NCBI GenBank assembly: GCA_019637855.1
Contig: JAHBUX010000001.1
Span: 767,337-831,336 of the forward strand
DNA: 64,000 bases
Reading direction: 5' to 3'
Source of the DNA: Bdellovibrionales bacterium
Lineage (GTDB): Bacteria > Bdellovibrionota > Bdellovibrionia > Bdellovibrionales > UBA1609
In this document: positions 30,061 to 39,812 of the stretch, one piece after another
Numbering within the stretch: the first letter of the stretch is position 1
Layout of the letters: every line of letters begins with the position of its first letter
Program-made: the position numbers and the translations under genes
Notes under the pieces: model-generated
The model's input: only the letters and a program-made list of their open reading frames with translations
Database searches by the model: none
Told to the model about the DNA's origin: nothing

Positions 30061-31863
30061 ATGGGGTTGATGAGGCGAGTCGTCTGGCCGGCGTTGATAC
30101 TGCCGGCGCTCTTGTGGATTAACGGTTGCGAATTTAATCGCGATCGCAAGCCGTCCATTCTGGTCATTGCCGTCGAAGGTCTTGCTTTCGAGACCTTAAG
30201 CTGTGATTCCGAACAGGGCGAGCCTGAGGTAGGTTTGCGTGCTTTCTGCGAAGAGGCCGTACGCTTTTCGCATGCCTACACACCAAGCACGCTAAGTCAG
30301 GCGTCCATGTCTTCGCTTTTGACGGGGCTTTATCCCGTGGACCATGGCGTGCGCCACAACGGCAATGATTTCTTGTCGGCGCGCTTTAAAACTCTGGGCG
30401 AAACCGCCTTAGGCAAAAGGTATCACACTCTATTCGTTTCCGGCGGCCCGCCGATTTGGCGTAAGTCGGGCCTGGCCCAGGGCTTTGAGATTTTTGAAGA
30501 CCAAGTCGATATCACGCCCGGGATGTACTATCGCCGGGCCGAGGACGTGTTCAAGATCGCGACCAATTGGATTGAACACGATACAGGCGGTCAGCCGTTT
30601 CTTGCGGTCTTGTTTTTAGCGGATCTGCAGTTTCCCAATGTGCCGACCAAGACCGATGAAGGAGAAGTGCGCGAGAAGAGCGAGGCAGCACAGGTCGAAG
30701 AGGTGAGTGAGTCGATTGGCACTCTGGTGCGCTGGTTGAAACAAAAGCGATTGTGGAATTCGACAAACATTGTTCTGGTCGGATTGAACTCTCTCAGTCG
30801 CAGCGAAACCGACACAGAGCCGCCGCCACTGTCGTTGCGTTCGGATAGCACACAGGTCGCGCTGTTTATCAAACCGGCCCGCAAAGAGCGCGACAATGTG
30901 ATTCAGTGGGGCGTGGATCGCAATGTCAGCTTGGTCGATGTCGGCCTGACCATGTTCGAGTGGTTGGGTGCGGAAGTCCCGCGCAGCTCCCTGGCGGAAG
31001 TGCAGCCGCAGAGCTTGTCGAGTGTGCTGGTGAAATCCGAGCCCAAGTGGGAAGAAGACCGGTTGATCCTAAGTGAGACCGCGTGGCCCGATTGGCTTGA
31101 AGGCGGAGGCGTACGTTGGGCCGTACGGCAAAATCAATTCTTGTATATTCACGACACGCGTCCGTTGATCTTCAATACGCGCACGGACCGTATGGAGAGC
31201 TTGCGCCTGAAGCCCAGTGATCCATTGTGGAACTCGCTCAATGGCGATGTGTTGGATCTGTTTCGGCACGCGCAGACGCAACCCTTCAAAGGTATGACGC
31301 CGCACTGGCCAGAGCAGTTGGAAGTGGCGCGCGAATTGTGGCGTGACGGCACTATGACTCGTAAACCCAAAGGGGCTGAGGCGTGGAGCAAGTGGTACCT
31401 ACGGCAGGCTCTGAGCACACGCGACTGGAAGAGCGTAAAGCAGTTGTCACAAGCACTGGGCGAGCCGGTTGGCAGCTATGTGGCGGCGAAACAGCTGGGT
31501 GAGAATTTGCCGATGCCGCGCAATCCGTGCGTGCGTCTAGTGTTATCCACCAAAGGCGATAAAAAATCGCAGCAGTCCGACTGTGCCGATGAAAAGGTTT
31601 TGGCGTTGCATGCCTGGCAGATCGCGAAAAGCGACGACGACAGACAGAGCGCTCAAGATCGTTTCACTCGGTTGTACGTGCAAACGTGGATGGATCAAGA
31701 CATCGGGCGTATGAATTATTTAACGGATTTACGTTGGGACGTGTTCCGCGAATTGCCAGAAGGCCCGCAACTGGCCGACTATCTGCTGACTTTGAAGGAA
31801 TTTGAACCGTTCGCCCGTAAGATGTCAGGTCTTCTGAATGCTAAAGACGCTCGCTTCCAATGA
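30061..31863 (+). CDS. Sulfatase/alkaline-phosphatase-superfamily lipoprotein, probably degenerate
   Basis: A 600-residue predicted lipoprotein (lipobox W-I-N-G-C, Cys23). Residues about 30-330 follow the sulfatase/LtaS layout: 'SILVIAVEGLAFETL', 'YTPSTLSQASMSSLLTGLYPVDHGVR', 'FLAVLFLADLQFP' and 'NIVLVGLNSLSRSE'. Key residues differ. At the C/S-x-P/A-x-R nucleophile motif the segment reads S79-Q-A-S-M83 (Arg lost), and the late D-H-G metal motif is replaced by N-S-L. The C-terminal 270 residues match nothing I recognise. It may be a non-catalytic, substrate-binding relative. It is divergent from exbB, and its 3' end overlaps the radical SAM gene by 39 bases. Confidence 0.72.
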   Translation: MGLMRRVVWPALILPALLWINGCEFNRDRKPSILVIAVEGLAFETLSCDSEQGEPEVGLRAFCEEAVRFSHAYTPSTLSQASMSSLLTGLYPVDHGVRHNGNDFLSARFKTLGETALGKRYHTLFVSGGPPIWRKSGLAQGFEIFEDQVDITPGMYYRRAEDVFKIATNWIEHDTGGQPFLAVLFLADLQFPNVPTKTDEGEVREKSEAAQVEEVSESIGTLVRWLKQKRLWNSTNIVLVGLNSLSRSETDTEPPPLSLRSDSTQVALFIKPARKERDNVIQWGVDRNVSLVDVGLTMFEWLGAEVPRSSLAEVQPQSLSSVLVKSEPKWEEDRLILSETAWPDWLEGGGVRWAVRQNQFLYIHDTRPLIFNTRTDRMESLRLKPSDPLWNSLNGDVLDLFRHAQTQPFKGMTPHWPEQLEVARELWRDGTMTRKPKGAEAWSKWYLRQALSTRDWKSVKQLSQALGEPVGSYVAAKQLGENLPMPRNPCVRLVLSTKGDKKSQQSDCADEKVLALHAWQIAKSDDDRQSAQDRFTRLYVQTWMDQDIGRMNYLTDLRWDVFRELPEGPQLADYLLTLKEFEPFARKMSGLLNAKDARFQ

Positions 31864-32649: not shown

Positions 32650-33336
32650 TTATGGCAGCTCGAGAACGCCCAGCCAAAAGGGAAGATTCGGGTACTGTGA
32701 AGCCAACGTGGCGCTGACTTGATCAAGCGAAGTGCTTTCATAGGGTAGATGAAAGAGTGGATTCGAAACTACGGTGTGACTTAAGAAAACCAGGCGGTCG
32801 TGGGCTTGCGTTTTAAAACTGGCCACATTCATATTGGTTGTGCTGTGTAAGCCGATGAGGTTTTGTGGCAGTGGCGGTAGAATCTCGGGCGGCTGGCTAA
32901 GCTCGGTGGACAGATCGATCTGCACACTCAGAGGGATCCACGGCATTCCTTGGCGCGCCAAGAAAAAGTGCGGGTAGCCGACCTGTGCAAAGGAGAGTTC
33001 GCCCTCTTGATGGGCGAATACCAAAACCTCAACACCGGACATGTATTCCGACTTATTCTCCTCGCGATAAATGGAATCGTTGGCCAGCATCACGCCGACG
33101 CGCAAACTGTTGGCCAGGCCCGACAGGCAGGTGAGCTTTTGAAACGGCGAAGTGGCTTCTAAATCTTGCCGTGCCGAAAGCACATAGTCTTTCAACGTTT
33201 CGATCACCTTCTTGGCCGCATTGCGGTTGCCCCAAGGGGTGGCAATCACGCCAAATGAACCATCTTCTTCCAGATAGATTTCGGGCGCTGGGCGAAAGAG
33301 TTGGCCGCCGTAAGAGCGTTCGAGCAAGCTGATCAC
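32650..33336 (-). CDS. PP2C-fold pseudophosphatase-like protein
   Basis: A 228-residue protein that I read as a diverged PP2C. The strand-turn-strand 'GVEVLVFAHQEGELSFAQVGYPHFFLARQGMPWIPL' follows the PP2C pattern in which G-T-T...V-G-D-S-R-x-Y-L precedes the 'LT' strand, and 'DRLVFLSHTVVSNP' occupies the place of 'DxLLLCSDGL'. All metal-binding acids are missing: V-G-Y-P replaces V-G-D-S, L-S-H replaces C-S-D, and 'TPWGNRN' stands where 'DGMGGH' would be. A phosphatase activity is therefore unlikely; a binding or regulatory role is inferred. Its ATG overlaps the FHA gene stop by four bases. Confidence 0.55.
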   Translation of the reverse strand: MISLLERSYGGQLFRPAPEIYLEEDGSFGVIATPWGNRNAAKKVIETLKDYVLSARQDLEATSPFQKLTCLSGLANSLRVGVMLANDSIYREENKSEYMSGVEVLVFAHQEGELSFAQVGYPHFFLARQGMPWIPLSVQIDLSTELSQPPEILPPLPQNLIGLHSTTNMNVASFKTQAHDRLVFLSHTVVSNPLFHLPYESTSLDQVSATLASQYPNLPFWLGVLELP

Positions 33337-35324
33337 GGCATGGCTCCATACTTTAAAAGTTTGCTCTTGGCTTTCTTGGCGTAGTCGTTGAACTCCAGAT
33401 CCTCAGCCAAAATTTTCTTCCACTTCTCTTTGGCCGAATCCACATTGCCCAAGCTTTCCTCTAAAACGCTATCTTCGTAGATGGCCTTCATCTCCCGGCG
33501 CAGTTCCTTCAGCATCTTGTCCTTAGTGGCTTTGGCTTCACTATTGCTCGGGTCTTCTTTGCTGGCCTTGTCGCAGGCCAGATAGGCTGCTTTATATTGG
33601 GATTTGCTGCCTTGCTGACGGCACTCCTCCATAAAACCGCCGACTTTGACCTTCAGTTTCTCTTGGATTGAAGCAATCTGGCGGCGTGCTTCTTCTTTCA
33701 GGCCGGCGGCGCGTGGATAGTTCGAATTCACGAATTTCTCCAAGGCACGTTGCGAAGCCAGGAGGTCATCCTTCTTCAATGTGGCCATGGCGCGGTTGAA
33801 ATGCGCCTGTCCGCGCGCGACCTTGGCGTCCTCGATGCGTCTTTGTTCGTCATTAAATTTCTTTTCGTCTTCGTGCATCTGGGCCGAGTGAATCATTTCA
33901 ATCACTAGGTTGTGCTCGGGTGAAAGCTCGATGGCCGGGGCCAAACAGAGGCGGGTTTCGTCGATGGTCGCGCCTGCTTTCAAAGTGGACTTGCACTGTT
34001 CCACATAGCCTAGGATGCGCTGCTCGACTTCTTCCTTTTCACGCTGTTGGCGCATGCGTTCTTCATCACGGCGGACCAGCTCTAAACCTTGTTCGCAGAA
34101 AGATTGCAACTCTTTGGAGTTTTCAAATTGGGGCAAGATCTCGTGCAGCTTCGCCAGTTCGGTTAGGCAAAGAGCGTATTTCCCGCCCACGTAAAGTGAG
34201 CGCGCTAGATTGAATGAGTCTTTGACCACCAGCTTCTGCTCTTTGCTTAGCGTATCGAAGCTTAAACTGCTGGCTGGATCGCGGGGAGCGACCTTGGCCT
34301 CTTCTTTTTTATCGGGTAATAGCGAGCCTATCAACAAGATCGGGATCAGAACCACCAATGCTAAACGCACTTTGTTTTTCTTGAGCTTGCGCCATTGGCG
34401 TCGCCAACCCTTTTTCTCCGGTCGCTCTGGGCGCGCCGCTTGATACTGCGTTGGTTCATAGGCCGCCGGTAGATTTGCTGGGTACCAGGGTTCGGCCGGC
34501 TCTTGCATCAGCTGAGGATCGAAGGCTGGCACCGGCAAGCGGTCCACACGATTGTTGAACTGGACGTCGCGAATCTCAAAAGTCATGTCGATGTTCATCA
34601 CACGAATTTCATCGCCGCTCTCGAGGCGGGTCGGTTCGTGTGACGGAATTTTATTTCCGTTCACCTTGGTGCCGTTCGAGCTCCCCAAATCGGTGATAAA
34701 GAAACCCTCTGGAGTGCGCGCGATCTCGAAGTGTTTGCGGCTGATGTGCGGCGAATTGATCGGAATCTCGCTGTCGGACTCACGCCCGGCCACCCACAGG
34801 TCGCCTTCTAGTTTCAAAACTTCATCGTCGGCGGTGTTTGGATAGGAGATGCGGAAGTAGGGCACCAATTTCGAGGCGCCGGCGACGGTGGCTTCATTGT
34901 TCGGACGGGGAGCTGTGTTGTCCACGGCCTGTGGAGCGGGTCCCTCTGCAGGCGTCGGCGCATTGGTGCCAATGCGCGGCTGGAAGAAGGTTGGTAGATT
35001 GCGTGAGGGCTCGGGCTTTTCTTCCTCAGCAAGGTCCGCTTCGAATCCGAACTCGTAGGGTGCGACGATAAACACGCACGCTTCGGTCAACTCTATCACC
35101 TGCACAGTTTCCGAGCCCTTTTGAATCAGCCCGAATTTCGAGAGCGCTTCGCACACCCAAATGCCGTCGCGCTCATAAAACTTCAAATGCTGACGTGAGA
35201 TGCCCTTCTCTGTGCCCAGAGGAATCTGGGCATCTTGAGCGCGGCCGGCCACGTACTCTTTGCCGTTCTCGAGCTGAATGCGGTGAAGTTCTTCGCCATG
35301 CAGTTTCACGGTTAAGATGGCCAT
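33333..35324 (-). CDS. Tandem-FHA membrane protein with helical-repeat C-terminus
   Basis: A 663-residue protein. The first FHA-like domain (about 1-95; 'VAGRAQDAQIPLGTEKGISRQHLKF') keeps G-R and S-R-x-H but lacks the second Asn-Gly pair. The second (about 150-250; 'VAGRESDSEIPINSPHISRKHFEI', 'GSSNGTKVNG') is canonical. A proline-rich linker, a basic stretch and one membrane helix ('VRLALVVLIPILLIGSLL', about 320-340) follow, then about 320 residues of charged TPR/Sel1-like helices with cysteines. The FHA domains are on one side of the membrane and the repeats on the other. It sits directly behind the next FHA gene (adjacent stop and start). Confidence 0.88.
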   Translation of the reverse strand: MAILTVKLHGEELHRIQLENGKEYVAGRAQDAQIPLGTEKGISRQHLKFYERDGIWVCEALSKFGLIQKGSETVQVIELTEACVFIVAPYEFGFEADLAEEEKPEPSRNLPTFFQPRIGTNAPTPAEGPAPQAVDNTAPRPNNEATVAGASKLVPYFRISYPNTADDEVLKLEGDLWVAGRESDSEIPINSPHISRKHFEIARTPEGFFITDLGSSNGTKVNGNKIPSHEPTRLESGDEIRVMNIDMTFEIRDVQFNNRVDRLPVPAFDPQLMQEPAEPWYPANLPAAYEPTQYQAARPERPEKKGWRRQWRKLKKNKVRLALVVLIPILLIGSLLPDKKEEAKVAPRDPASSLSFDTLSKEQKLVVKDSFNLARSLYVGGKYALCLTELAKLHEILPQFENSKELQSFCEQGLELVRRDEERMRQQREKEEVEQRILGYVEQCKSTLKAGATIDETRLCLAPAIELSPEHNLVIEMIHSAQMHEDEKKFNDEQRRIEDAKVARGQAHFNRAMATLKKDDLLASQRALEKFVNSNYPRAAGLKEEARRQIASIQEKLKVKVGGFMEECRQQGSKSQYKAAYLACDKASKEDPSNSEAKATKDKMLKELRREMKAIYEDSVLEESLGNVDSAKEKWKKILAEDLEFNDYAKKAKSKLLKYGAMP

Positions 35325-36308
35325 TTAAAACCGCCCTTCCGTCAGACGGTCACAAGCTTCATAGTTGGCCTTGGCCTCTTGATATATAGGACTGCTTGCG
35401 TCTTTCACCATCACGATCACGTTGCGGAAGGCCGCGCGACAGGCTTTGTACTGGTTTTGCTCGCGATATTTGCGACCGAGTACCACTTGATACTGAATCA
35501 GCTCGTCGAACTTACGTTGCGAGAGACGTTGGTAGCGGTTGCACAATACGTGTTCCGGATTTAGAGCCAAGCAGGCCTGAAAGCTGGTCAAAGAGCGTTC
35601 GAATTGGCCCTTCTTGAAGTCGCGGAAGCCGCGTACGTAGTTCTCCTGCGCCTGACGAGCCGTTACGCTATTGTTCATTTTCTTCAAGGAGACCGCCTCG
35701 GCCGCCTCGCGCAGTTTGTTGGCGGTTTCGATATCGGCTTGAATCTGTTTTTCGCTACGGATCTGTTGCTCTTTCTTTTTGGCTGGTGAGCCAGAGAATA
35801 GCCAAAAGCCGAGCAGTCCCAGCACTCCATATATAATGAGGCGATTGGTTCCGGCCTTCTTACTGGTTTTCGGCCGCCCACTTTTCGAAGAGCGTGGGCG
35901 CGAAGGAGCTGAGGCGCCGCCGTACATCGCAGGCGAACCGCCGTAGTCTTGGTGAACCACCGATAGCGGTGAGCCCGAAACCGCCGTTTGATTGAACTGC
36001 ACTTCGGTATCGCCAAAGGTCACCACGTCGCCGTCTTGTAAGATTGCACGCTCCACACCTTTGCCATTCACTTGCACCAGATTTTTATCGTTCAGGCTGA
36101 TCACTTCGCAGCTGAAGCCATCGGATTCCACCTGCGCATGCTTGCGGCTGCATTTCGGATCGTTGACGATCACAAAACCGCAATCCGGACTACGGCCGAC
36201 GTCAAACGACGGCGCGTTCATCAGGCGCACCGAGCCCTTCATGGTCCCGCTGATCACGGTCCACTTCGTAGCTGCGGCAGGAGAGATGGCGACTGCGGAA
36301 TTGCTCAT
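35325..36308 (-). CDS. FHA-domain membrane protein with TPR-like C-terminus
   Basis: A 327-residue protein. One FHA domain (about 15-105; 'FDVGRSPDCGFVIVNDPKCSRKHAQVE', 'NLVQVNGKGVERAILQDGDVVTFG') has the phosphothreonine-binding G-R, S-R-K-H and N-G residues. A Ser/Arg/Lys-rich linker, one membrane helix ('RLIIYGVLGLLGFWLFSG', about 160-177) and a helical C-terminal domain (TPR-like, 'YVRGFRDFKKGQFERSLTSFQACLALNPEH') follow. The architecture repeats that of its downstream neighbour. Its ATG overlaps the stop of the upstream FHA gene by four bases. Confidence 0.9.
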   Translation of the reverse strand: MSNSAVAISPAAATKWTVISGTMKGSVRLMNAPSFDVGRSPDCGFVIVNDPKCSRKHAQVESDGFSCEVISLNDKNLVQVNGKGVERAILQDGDVVTFGDTEVQFNQTAVSGSPLSVVHQDYGGSPAMYGGASAPSRPRSSKSGRPKTSKKAGTNRLIIYGVLGLLGFWLFSGSPAKKKEQQIRSEKQIQADIETANKLREAAEAVSLKKMNNSVTARQAQENYVRGFRDFKKGQFERSLTSFQACLALNPEHVLCNRYQRLSQRKFDELIQYQVVLGRKYREQNQYKACRAAFRNVIVMVKDASSPIYQEAKANYEACDRLTEGRF

Positions 36309-37933
36309 CCTTCTCCTTCCATAGGCAAGAGAACGATCAGGTAGTAGGCAAGCTTGGCGCTGCCGTAAATGCCCTGTGCCACCACTTGGAAGTTCGAGCC
36401 CGAGAACTCGAGTTCATTAGTGGCCAATTCGTCGGGATTTTTGTCCACGCGTTCGATCAGATCTTTCAAACTGAGTTTCAGCGCTTGATCGTTGATATCG
36501 TTCACACTTTGTAGAGTGAGAGTGGCGGCCGGCAAACCGATACGGGCTTCAAAAGCCTGATTGACCGCAGCAATCGAAAGATCGTGCGTGCGCACGCCCA
36601 TGGCGGCAAAGCCCATCAGCTCGACTAAGTTCCCGATCTCGCGATTGCGGTCATGTTCAACGGCACGATTGACGCCCGCGCTCTGCACCGGATTGGCCGC
36701 GCGGGTCAGCGCGCTAGACACGTTCGAGGCTAGAAGCTGCAGGGCGGGAAACTGATATTCGACGTGCACGGTCTCGCCGCCATCTTTGAGCGCCGTGTCC
36801 AGTTGCACGTTGATATTGCGGATCGGATATTCGATCAGCTTGTACAGGAAGTAGAAGAGCACAAAGCCCAGCACCAACGAGATACAGAGCGTAATGATAA
36901 AGAGGCTCAAAACGTCGCCGTCTTTGACGGCCAACGAACGCATGTCATACAGCACCACGGCCCAATGGGTGACCGCTTGATTGCCGGAGTCTTGGTTGAA
37001 CACCATCACCGGATACATGGCGACGACGGTGTCGTCGTCGATTTGCTTCACAGCTTCACTATTGAATTTGCGAGCTTCATGTACAAATGGGATGTCGGGA
37101 TAAGAGCCTGCTTGCGAAGCCGGAGAAACGATGTTGCCGTCGATGTTGGAGATGATCATGGCCTTTTTCACGCCGGGGCGGGCCGTGGCGATGTCCACCG
37201 AGGCAGCGCTGATCTGGTCGCTGGTTAAGTAAGGCCGATTCACGCGCGCCAGAGTGGTGGCGATCGTCATGGCGTGATGTTGGCTCTCTTCTTCGATACT
37301 GCTCTTAAGGATTCGCACCAAAGGAATCGTCGATAGTGTGGTGACCAGAAGAATAAAGGCCGCCATAAAGCCAGCGAGCACCCATTTGAAATCAAACAGT
37401 TCGGGCAGCTTGACCATTCCGGGCAGAACCACGCGATCCATGTATTCTTGAAATACAGCTGCCCAACGCGGGAACTTGCTCTGCATGAGTTCGGCGCTCT
37501 CGGCCTGCGGAGCCGAGAATTCTTCGCTGTCGTCGCGGTCACGCCGACGCGAGCGCGGCGGTGACTGCTGATAAGCCACGTTGCCATAAGAGGGCTGCTG
37601 TTGGCCTCCGTACATCTGCTGCTGGAAGCGTGCGGCCCAGTTCTCTGGCACCTTTTGAACTTCAAAGAACACGTCGTGCAACGCGATCTTGTCGCCCGAG
37701 TTGGCTTTGCTCGAACGCACCTGCACGCCGTTGATGAAGGTGCCGTTGCGTGAACCGGCGTCGGTGACGATAACTTTGTCGTCAAAGATCTCGATACGAG
37801 TATGCTCTTTTGAAATGCTGCCACTCGGGATCTTGATGTCGCAGCCGGGCGCTCGTCCAATCAACGTGGAGTTTTTGGTGAGCGGCACAACTTGTCCGGC
37901 CAAAGGGCCGTTAAGAAAGCGGATGATCCACAT
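36305..37933 (-). CDS. FHA-domain membrane sensor protein with extracytoplasmic and PAS-like domains
   Basis: A 542-residue protein. It has an N-terminal FHA domain (about 1-95; 'LIGRAPGCDIKIPSGSISKEHTRI', 'AGSRNGTFINGVQV') with all phosphothreonine-binding residues, a Gln/Arg-rich linker, and a first membrane helix near 195-220. An extracytoplasmic sensor-like domain (about 225-350; 'VKKAMIISNIDGNIVSPASQ', Cache-like) is followed by a second helix near 355-380, a HAMP-like stretch, and a C-terminal PAS-like domain ('MGVRTHDLSIAAVNQAFEARIG'). No kinase or cyclase output domain is present. ATG at 37933 is chosen; it lies inside the DUF192 gene (23-base overlap). Confidence 0.87.
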   Translation of the reverse strand: MWIIRFLNGPLAGQVVPLTKNSTLIGRAPGCDIKIPSGSISKEHTRIEIFDDKVIVTDAGSRNGTFINGVQVRSSKANSGDKIALHDVFFEVQKVPENWAARFQQQMYGGQQQPSYGNVAYQQSPPRSRRRDRDDSEEFSAPQAESAELMQSKFPRWAAVFQEYMDRVVLPGMVKLPELFDFKWVLAGFMAAFILLVTTLSTIPLVRILKSSIEEESQHHAMTIATTLARVNRPYLTSDQISAASVDIATARPGVKKAMIISNIDGNIVSPASQAGSYPDIPFVHEARKFNSEAVKQIDDDTVVAMYPVMVFNQDSGNQAVTHWAVVLYDMRSLAVKDGDVLSLFIITLCISLVLGFVLFYFLYKLIEYPIRNINVQLDTALKDGGETVHVEYQFPALQLLASNVSSALTRAANPVQSAGVNRAVEHDRNREIGNLVELMGFAAMGVRTHDLSIAAVNQAFEARIGLPAATLTLQSVNDINDQALKLSLKDLIERVDKNPDELATNELEFSGSNFQVVAQGIYGSAKLAYYLIVLLPMEGEG

Positions 37934-38261
37934 GCAATTGCTCACCGATGGCGACCGGATGTTTCTCTAGAAATCCGGGCGCGAGTTCAATAACGCTGGC
38001 GGCGCCCCACACGGGCAGCACCAGGCGGGCGGGTTTGACCCGCGAGTAAGTTTTCTTCACCACCATCTTGCGATCAACGAAGACCAAGTCGATGGCGAAC
38101 TTCATAAAAAACGTATGAATCGAGTTACACCGCAAAATCCACAAAGCTTGATCGTCGGGCAGATGAGTGCGGCCGATCAAACCCTTGGTGCGCGGCCACC
38201 AAGTGGACGCGACTTCGAGATACGGAATCAAAGTGGAGCGGGCGTTACGCAACTGCATCAC
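37911..38261 (-). CDS. DUF192 family protein
   Basis: A 116-residue protein of the DUF192 family, recognised from 'TWWPRTKGLIGRTHLPDDQALWILRCNSIHTFFMKFAIDLVFVDRKMVV', with the conserved R-x-x-G-L-M/I-x-R and the I-H-T-F/x-x-M motif, and a C-terminal 'VIELAPGF'. Family members are small beta proteins, often exported, sometimes linked to stress or secretion; no activity is known. No signal peptide is seen here. Both ends overlap their neighbours (tadC by four bases, FHA gene by 23), so it is an integral part of this operon. Confidence 0.85.
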   Translation of the reverse strand: MMQLRNARSTLIPYLEVASTWWPRTKGLIGRTHLPDDQALWILRCNSIHTFFMKFAIDLVFVDRKMVVKKTYSRVKPARLVLPVWGAASVIELAPGFLEKHPVAIGEQLHVDHPLS

Positions 38262-39163
38262 GTGCCCCCGTAGAAGAACTGCAGCACGACGGGTGCGAAC
38301 ACCATGATCATCACCGCGGGTAGAATCAGAAACATCAGGGGAATCAACATGGCTTGCGAGGCCCGGGCGCCGGCCTTTTCGGCGCGAACAAAACGCTCTA
38401 AGCGCATTTGGATCGATTGGTCTTTCAATACCTGGGCGATGCTGGCACCAGTCTCGTCCGCATCGCGTACGACGGCGACCACACTGGTGATCTCGGAGAT
38501 GTCGAGGCGGTCGGCCAAGCGGGTGAGCGCCTCTTTGCGTGAAGAGCCGAGTTTGATGTCTTTCAAAACCAGATTGAACTCTTCAGCCAAAGTGCTGGCT
38601 TCGGCCTTGTCGACGATGCGTTGAAGTGCACCCATGAAGTCCAGACCGGCTTCTGTCGAAAGGGCCATCAGGTCGATGAAGAAGGGTAGGTCGACAACGA
38701 CATCGATGTAGCGCTTCTTGCGCGCTTGGTTGGCGTGAATGGTTGGAAACATCCAGCCCGCCACCGCGAGGGCGGGGAACATCAGCATGGGCATATCCAT
38801 CTGCAGGGCAAAGTTCATAACGAAGAAGCCGATGGGAAAGAAAACCCCCCACAGGATCTGTAGGCCGATGAATTCATCTTCGTTCAGCTCTTGCGACAGG
38901 CCGGCTGTCAGCAAGCGCCGCCGGATACGTTCACGATAGGCTTTGCCTTGAATACGTTGTGCGTGCTGAAGAGTGAAATTGTGCACCAGCGGGCGCGAGA
39001 AATTGATTAAACCACTTTTGGATTTGGCGGGTTCATTTCCTGAGGCCCAAGCCAACGCTTCAGCGTCGGTGTTGTTGGTGAACACGGCGGTCGAAAACAG
39101 GTACACGCTCAATGCGGCGAGCCCTAGTCCGGTCACCAGAATAAAAAATTCGAACGTGAACAT
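38258..39163 (-). CDS. tadC: TadC-type secretion/pilus inner membrane protein (T2SS F family)
   Basis: A 301-residue type II secretion F-domain protein of the TadC class: an N-terminal helix, a cytoplasmic stretch ('RIRRRLLTAGLSQELNEDEFIGLQ'), two central helices, the T2SSF domain ('VVDLPFFIDLMALSTEAGLDFMGALQRIV', 'EFNLVLKDIKLGSSRKEAL', 'DADETGASIAQVLKDQS') and a C-terminal helix ending GGT. TadC works with TadB and the TadA ATPase in Flp-type pili. None of those partners is in the window. ATG at 39163 has AAGGG upstream. It is the first gene of the FHA operon and is divergent from maf. Confidence 0.9.
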   Translation of the reverse strand: MFTFEFFILVTGLGLAALSVYLFSTAVFTNNTDAEALAWASGNEPAKSKSGLINFSRPLVHNFTLQHAQRIQGKAYRERIRRRLLTAGLSQELNEDEFIGLQILWGVFFPIGFFVMNFALQMDMPMLMFPALAVAGWMFPTIHANQARKKRYIDVVVDLPFFIDLMALSTEAGLDFMGALQRIVDKAEASTLAEEFNLVLKDIKLGSSRKEALTRLADRLDISEITSVVAVVRDADETGASIAQVLKDQSIQMRLERFVRAEKAGARASQAMLIPLMFLILPAVMIMVFAPVVLQFFYGGT

Positions 39164-39197
39164 TCCCAACCCTTCGAAATTCCCTTACAACGAAGAC

Positions 39198-39812
39198 ATG
39201 TTGAAACTTGTTTTGGCGTCCCAATCACCGCGTCGCCGCGAACTGCTGAATTCGGCCGCTTACGAGTTCACTGTCTCCACAGTAAAAGTATCGGAAATCT
39301 TTGATGAAAGTTTGAATCCGCAGGAAGTGGCGTCTCATCTTGCGACACTCAAGGCGCGCGCCTGTCTGGACCAGCACAAGTCATTGAATTCACCAGGCTA
39401 TTTGATTCTCTCGGCCGACACAATCGTGGTGCTGGGTGACCAAATCTTAGGCAAGCCCGAATCGGCGGCCCAAGCCGAGGATTTTTTGCGCCGACTTTCT
39501 TCAAATACTCACCGCGTCATGACCGGTGTAGCTCTCCTTGAGTCGGGCTCGACCAAGACCTGGACCGGGGTTGAAATCACCGAAGTGAAGTTTCGCGAGC
39601 TGAGTGCAGAAGAGATTCGCACCTATGTGGCCGACGGGGAACCGATGGACAAAGCGGGGGCTTACGGGATTCAGGGCGACGGTGGTAAATTTGTTTCGTC
39701 AGTGCATGGCTCGTGGAGTAATGTGGTCGGCTTGCCGCTCGAGCGGCTGGAAAGAGCTCTGAAGGAAAATGGCTGGACAGTCGGTCGGCACTCGCCTCAA
39801 AAATCTGAATGA
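39198..39812 (+). CDS. maf: Maf-type nucleoside triphosphate pyrophosphatase
   Basis: A 204-residue Maf/HAM1-like protein. It has the opening 'LVLASQSPRRRELLN' and the central 'LILSADTIVVLGDQILGKP' with the catalytic aspartate, then 'EPMDKAGAYGIQGDGGKFV' and 'GSWSNVVGLPLERLERAL'. The family hydrolyses dTTP/UTP or modified nucleotides; which group this one belongs to cannot be read with confidence. ATG at 39198; the frame is open upstream only as antisense of tadC. It overlaps the next gene by 44 bases. Confidence 0.95.
   Translation: MLKLVLASQSPRRRELLNSAAYEFTVSTVKVSEIFDESLNPQEVASHLATLKARACLDQHKSLNSPGYLILSADTIVVLGDQILGKPESAAQAEDFLRRLSSNTHRVMTGVALLESGSTKTWTGVEITEVKFRELSAEEIRTYVADGEPMDKAGAYGIQGDGGKFVSSVHGSWSNVVGLPLERLERALKENGWTVGRHSPQKSE

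Follow-up and report, generated by a model that had tools for sequence, protein, structure and literature searches.

The window analyzed here, a 64,000-nucleotide stretch of a Bdellovibrionales genome (contig positions 767337-831336 of G000:C1), carries on its minus strand a six-gene operon (32650-39163) that encodes TadC, a DUF192 protein, three FHA-domain proteins referred to below as FHA1, FHA2, and FHA3, and a protein with a PP2C fold. We consider it rather likely that this operon represents half of a split Tad machine combined with a phosphothreonine control module. The linkage of the six genes, their orthology, and published mutants make it very likely that they are part of a Tad machine. 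Our favored explanation of the remainder, gating of this machine by phosphothreonine, is proposed with moderate confidence on the basis of pocket conservation, a near-invariant threonine (Thr146 of FHA3), and an apparently ancestral phosphatase. What the analysis shows directly is the genes and their order, the split locus, the orthology to a predation-essential operon, the predicted folds, and the conservation of individual residues.

The initial annotation, made from the DNA letters, described six genes that overlap or abut, and the list of open reading frames (ORFs) confirms all of them on the minus strand: four junctions overlap (by 4, 35, 4, and 4 bp), and FHA2 and FHA3 abut. The first gene, tadC (38258-39163, ATG start at 39163), encodes a Tad inner-membrane platform protein with a T2SSF match of 3.3e-16 (PF00482, 61.7 bits against a cut-off of 25.2). 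The same annotation remarked that TadA, TadB, a secretin, and a pilin are missing. This holds for the operon alone, because the genome encodes TadA, TadB, a secretin, and a pilin-like protein about 217 kb away. The genome holds one tadC, in the operon, and one tadB (G000:C1:588213-589091), at separate places. The tadB locus (L015) contains tadV, three tadE-like genes, cpaB, a secretin gene, a tadZ-tadA fusion, tadB, and an RHS-like gene, with no tadC. The TadA/CpaF ATPase and TadB were identified by T2SSE and T2SSF matches, and the tad ORFs extend over L015 3590-11092, the names CpaB, secretin, and TadV being assigned from reading and from homology among tad loci. The N-terminus of the fusion protein reads as a MinD/TadZ-type ATPase. 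The tadB loci of eight relatives present the same picture, and an operon lacking its machine is ruled out by the second tad locus in the genome.

The operon is widely conserved across Bdellovibrionota. Of 99 relatives, 98 gave a TadC match, as did 144/144 genomes of the phylum, a few of them just at TadB-like scores. Within the order, all six genes lie in order and on one strand in 98 of 124 locus records, a further 21 keep the same arrangement as far as their DNA extends, and each of the remaining five has one uncalled gene; these records combine two sets that overlap in genomes, so that some genomes are counted twice. Other families contributed 32 loci, of which 17 contain the complete set and 4 remain collinear up to the point where the DNA stops. 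Most of the other 11 retain tadC-DUF192-FHA1-FHA2-FHA3 and deviate in the final gene; in L242, tadC stands alone, without FHA genes. This conservation of gene order and strand is above chance, and nearly all relatives have FHA genes linked to tadC, where the initial annotation had allowed for the two never being linked.

A search for tad genes beyond the tadC homologues, which that annotation had suggested, was positive in several other families, where one contiguous locus contains both parts. For instance, in L221, L225, L227, L229, L230, L236, and L238, pilin-like ORFs, tadE, cpaB, and rcpA, in most cases together with tadZA and tadB, come after the six-gene block in the same orientation; tadV is also among the downstream tad genes in families outside the order, and L218 is organized likewise, but without tadB. 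Short Flp-like ORFs were recognized in these contiguous loci by reading the ORFs. Genes tadA, tadB, and tadC are usually linked. Because the single FHA-tad locus is widespread, and because of this usual linkage, we infer that it is the ancestral arrangement. Together with the sole tadC of the genome and its second tad locus, these contiguous loci strongly support the proposed link to a Tad-type machine.

Sequence comparison indicates that the operon is orthologous to Bd0470-Bd0475 of Bdellovibrio bacteriovorus HD100, where all six genes recur in identical order. The HD100 block contains an ORF with 12 of 12 published Bd0474 interface residues at their published positions, and a separate HD100 locus encodes Bd0075 with 13 of 14 published residues. 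The Bd0474 residues and the gene order together establish tadC as Bd0470 and FHA3 as Bd0474, with Bd0471, Bd0472, Bd0473, and Bd0475 assigned by order; identity to the HD100 proteins is 60% for TadC and 31% for FHA3. In HD100, the transposon mutant Bd0470::tn loses prey attachment, killing, and rounding, and Bd0474::tn attaches to prey that it neither kills nor rounds (Duncan 2019, PMC6561027); killing by both mutants was restored by complementation (PMC6561027). The same study assigns Bd0470 and Bd0474 to a single operon, which disagrees with the separate transcription of tadC and the FHA genes that the initial annotation had considered (PMC6561027). Furthermore, the tad operon bd0108-0121 and bd0470 are jointly down-regulated in host-independent strains (Capeness 2013, PMC3818213), and Bd0474 binds the TPR protein Bd0075 in two-hybrid assays (PMC12034629). 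The genome studied here encodes a Bd0075 orthologue (G000:C1:512869-515628) that is 40% identical.

A single architecture had been suggested for all three FHA proteins, and this description suits FHA2 and FHA3 but not FHA1. FHA2 (35325-36308, minus strand, Bd0473 orthologue; Pfam FHA 3e-12, TPR_2 1.7e-5) and FHA3 (33333-35324, minus strand, Bd0474 orthologue) each have one transmembrane helix (residues 157-175 and 319-337, respectively) followed by TPR-like repeats. In FHA3, the Pfam FHA match (7.6e-26) falls in two stretches, FHA-a and FHA-b, which are separated by a linker and precede the helix and a predicted periplasmic part with a weak TPR match. FHA1 (36305-37945, minus strand, Bd0472 orthologue; Pfam FHA 1e-15) is predicted to have two transmembrane helices, with a CitA-like periplasmic sensor of the PDC/PAS type in the intervening segment and a cytoplasmic PAS-like domain after the second helix. 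In its AlphaFold2 model (predicted local distance difference test score, pLDDT, 88.6), structural comparison matches the FHA domain (37649-37945, minus strand) to the FHA domains of GarA, OdhI, and DgcB at Z 17-19. The putative sensor (36917-37312, minus strand; residues 215-343) resembles the extracytoplasmic PAS fold of CitA (8biy) with Z 14.4 and a root-mean-square deviation (rmsd) of 2.5 over 118 aligned residues. Residues 178-546 match WalK loosely, at an rmsd of 14.2, so that just the domain order is comparable. Pfam detects no kinase domain in FHA1, and the model indicates a receptor chassis with an FHA output and no kinase.

The FHA domains differ in how completely their phosphothreonine pockets are retained. 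In FHA1, the canonical pocket residues G30, R31, S45, H48, S65, and N67 are 98-100% conserved among 120 orthologues. Similarly, G180, R181, S195, S215, and N217 of FHA-b in FHA3 are 95-100% conserved in approximately 110-120 sequences, and R39 and S54 of FHA2 reach 98-100%. Between the two FHA domains of FHA3 lies Thr146 (codon 34887-34889, minus strand), a candidate phosphothreonine that is a threonine in 107 of 110 orthologues, while other linker columns are mostly below 60%; the three exceptions look like alignment offsets. Such conservation is the pattern expected of a recognized site, which would be phosphorylated if the proposed gate operates.

Pfam supports five of the operon proteins, and the sixth, the PP2C-fold protein (32650-33336, minus strand, Bd0475 orthologue), has no family match. 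Its AlphaFold2 model (pLDDT 94.9) is nonetheless close to PDB structures of tPphA (Z 19.9 over 209 residues), PstP (Z 18.8), and PppA of the type VI secretion system (T6SS; 6jkv, Z 17.9). At the NED, DGxGG, DG, and DN motifs, the protein has A-P, T-P, H-T, and Y-P, respectively, so that the catalytic metal-binding motifs are lost, in agreement with the pseudoenzyme that the initial annotation had recognized. None of the 77 sequences from the order has NED, DGxGG, or TDG, and the DN column varies, with scattered D and N. At the last-gene position in other classes, NED and DGxGG persist in 17 of 22 proteins, the TDG aspartate in about 10, and the DN aspartate in 9; sister lineages with intact catalytic motifs include L222, L226, L233, L234, L237, L240, and L244. 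Several of these other-class proteins are assigned by Pfam to PP2C/SpoIIE, some weakly. If the proteins at this position are true orthologues, which the modeled structure and the gene order support, the window protein probably descends from a phosphatase encoded at the same place.

These observations suggest the following mechanism. In this order, a single Tad pilus machine would be encoded at two loci, with the operon as one half that supplies TadC, the second inner-membrane platform protein, and an envelope-spanning control module. FHA1 would be the receptor of this module, in which a periplasmic CitA-like sensor and a cytoplasmic PAS domain flank the membrane anchor and the output is an FHA domain, not a kinase. 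FHA2 and FHA3 would have cytoplasmic FHA domains and periplasmic TPR-like repeats, and it is in the periplasm that Bd0474, the orthologue of FHA3, would meet Bd0075. Upon prey contact, an unlinked Hanks-type kinase could phosphorylate a threonine of the complex, most plausibly Thr146 of FHA3. The FHA domains would read the phosphothreonine and alter the docking of the platform (TadB/TadC) and the motor (TadZ-TadA), thereby permitting pilus extension, or killing after attachment. The PP2C-fold protein may ancestrally have been the phosphatase of the circuit and, in this order, a non-catalytic binding partner. Within this scheme, we infer the phosphorylation, the kinase, the direction of control, and the contact with TadC. 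We regard as tentative its most specific form, a built-in switch in which FHA1 senses a periplasmic ligand or state at prey contact, phosphorylated Thr146 is read by FHA domains, and the former phosphatase serves as a non-catalytic partner in Bdellovibrionales and as a working enzyme in sister classes.

Several observations weigh against phosphothreonine gating. The conserved Asn loop is missing from two of the four FHA domains, that of FHA2 and FHA-a of FHA3, which retain only Gly-Arg and Ser of the pocket. The PP2C-like protein has lost its catalytic motifs throughout the order, is degenerate in some other lineages, and is predicted to be dead, so phospho-cycling cannot depend on it in Bdellovibrionales. 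Neither a Hanks motif nor a match to a kinase query was found in 160-odd loci, with a narrow motif and one of the four kinases of the genome as query, and we found no phosphorylation data in open-licence papers. Moreover, Bd0470::tn fails to attach and Bd0474::tn attaches, which makes Bd0474 dispensable for some TadC function. The gate that the initial annotation proposed therefore gains from the FHA1 and FHA-b pockets, Thr146, and the sister-class phosphatase, and loses from the two domains without an Asn loop, the dead phosphatase, and the absence of a nearby kinase. Hanks kinases are present in the genome, which has four Pkinase matches above the cut-off, and the kinase behind FHA signaling through DgcB in Bdellovibrio was not identified (PMC6733907).

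The main rival holds that the FHA proteins form a structural, phosphorylation-independent scaffold or ring of the Tad inner-membrane complex, like SctD/YscD or EssC-EssB of the type VIIb secretion system, to which the pseudophosphatase adds a further piece. FHA domains are known to act as phosphorylation-independent scaffolds, for example in EssC of that system (PMC11217815), and all three FHA proteins exceed the Pfam cut-off for Yop-YscD_cpl, a family that represents the FHA-like cytoplasmic domain of the type III ring protein. The missing Asn loops and the dead phosphatase agree with such a role, as does the AlphaFold-Multimer pairing of Bd0473 with Bd0475 (interface predicted TM score, ipTM, 0.604; PMC12034629). 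However, a pure scaffold would not need the Arg, Ser, and Asn of the phosphothreonine pocket, which are conserved phylum-wide at 98-100% in FHA1 and 95-98% in FHA-b, and the near-invariance of Thr146 and the intact PP2C motifs at the same position in other classes also weigh against it; we judge it unlikely, though worth serious attention. A further reading, in which the operon shares its transcript with tadC for historical reasons and controls another attack-phase process, such as gliding or cyclic di-GMP signaling like that of DgcB, appears very improbable. It could draw on the other FHA proteins of the genome (12 FHA matches in all), on FHA signaling by DgcB in B. bacteriovorus (PMC6733907), and on L242, but gene order is conserved over many families, the FHA block is contiguous with other tad genes in several, and the killing defect fits a post-attachment role.

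The proposed phosphothreonine-gated machine shares features with several known systems. The operon and its predation role were already known in HD100, where the operon is predation-essential and its FHA genes and Bd0475 have been labeled hypothetical or FHA proteins. In Myxococcus xanthus, the Kil system has FHA proteins and split clusters, and Kil-like systems occur in Bdellovibrionales (Seef 2021, PMC8460266). Compared by published descriptions, Kil is likewise Tad-like, with two clusters, several FHA proteins, and contact-dependent prey killing (PMC8460266, PMC12075869), a requirement that here is taken from the published mutants of the orthologues Bd0470 and Bd0474 rather than from the source organism. 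In contrast, Myxococcus KilF has an N-terminal FHA domain, whereas the ATPase here is fused to TadZ and has no FHA match there; KilG and KilH lie in one cluster, whereas tadB and tadC are apart; and a phosphatase is not mentioned in PMC8460266, whereas a PP2C-fold protein is present here. The T6SS threonine phosphorylation pathway (PpkA, PppA, Fha) similarly ties FHA and PP2C-fold proteins to a contact-triggered envelope machine, with an FHA pocket that, judged by residue conservation, appears intact in FHA1 and FHA-b; the present system differs in its Tad machine, in that no linked PpkA-type kinase was found, and in the dead phosphatase of the order. The T7SSf of Clostridia also pairs an FHA protein with a PPM phosphatase and has no genetically associated kinase, but it is an unrelated machine with an FtsK-like ATPase and WXG100 substrates (PMC11217815).

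The phylum-wide single locus with the FHA block, the PP2C identity and catalytic loss of Bd0475, the receptor architecture of FHA1, and the invariant threonine appear to be new; they were not found in the open-licence literature, and prior mention elsewhere is possible. These findings bear on how a predatory bacterium converts contact with its prey into killing. They connect the FHA proteins with the Tad machine throughout the phylum, suggesting a phosphorylation switch on the hunting machine, and they document how an enzyme became a pseudoenzyme while its gene kept its place in the genome. With one candidate phosphosite and two FHA pockets named, the gate is testable in a tractable laboratory predator.

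The DUF192 gene (37911-38261, minus strand; PF02643, 9.6e-18; Bd0471 orthologue) keeps its position beside tadC in relatives; its product has no informative PDB match, and open-licence papers offer no clear account of a role in Tad systems. No match to the TadC profile was found in a search of PDB sequences. An alternative TTG start of tadC lies at 39169 (ORF 38258-39169), and a divergent maf-like gene begins about 35 bp from tadC. A FliA-type promoter upstream of tadC was discarded: the match at 39288-39314 has three mismatches, and with 79 such matches in the window it provides no evidence. A sulfatase-superfamily gene (30061-31863, plus strand) is convergent with the operon and adjoins it in about 80 loci of relatives.

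At the second tad locus, TadZ and TadA are fused into a protein of 762 amino acids (L015:7929-10217), and the fusion occurs in the tad loci of all relatives examined (713-917 amino acids). The longest form (917 amino acids, L218:15125-17878) is directly followed by an RHS-like gene, with a TadB-like match on another contig. Thr302, near the TadZ/TadA junction, is conserved and could be a second phosphosite, a weaker candidate than FHA3 Thr146 because the comparison comprised just 16 sequences. The product of L015:2136-2954 has a Flp-like N-terminus (GQGLVEYLLVLVVAVAI) but is 272 amino acids long. A TadV-type prepilin peptidase with a GGGDVKL motif is encoded at L015:3590-4087, in contrast to the report that TadV is missing in Bdellovibrio genomes (Avidan 2017, PMC5430801). 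Finally, tadB is followed by genes for an RHS-like protein of 563 amino acids and a secreted-looking protein of 90 amino acids (L015:11089-13062), which, judging by position, may correspond to Bd0109 and Bd0108 of the hit locus; in the tadB loci of 8/8 relatives, the RHS-like gene adjoins tadB.

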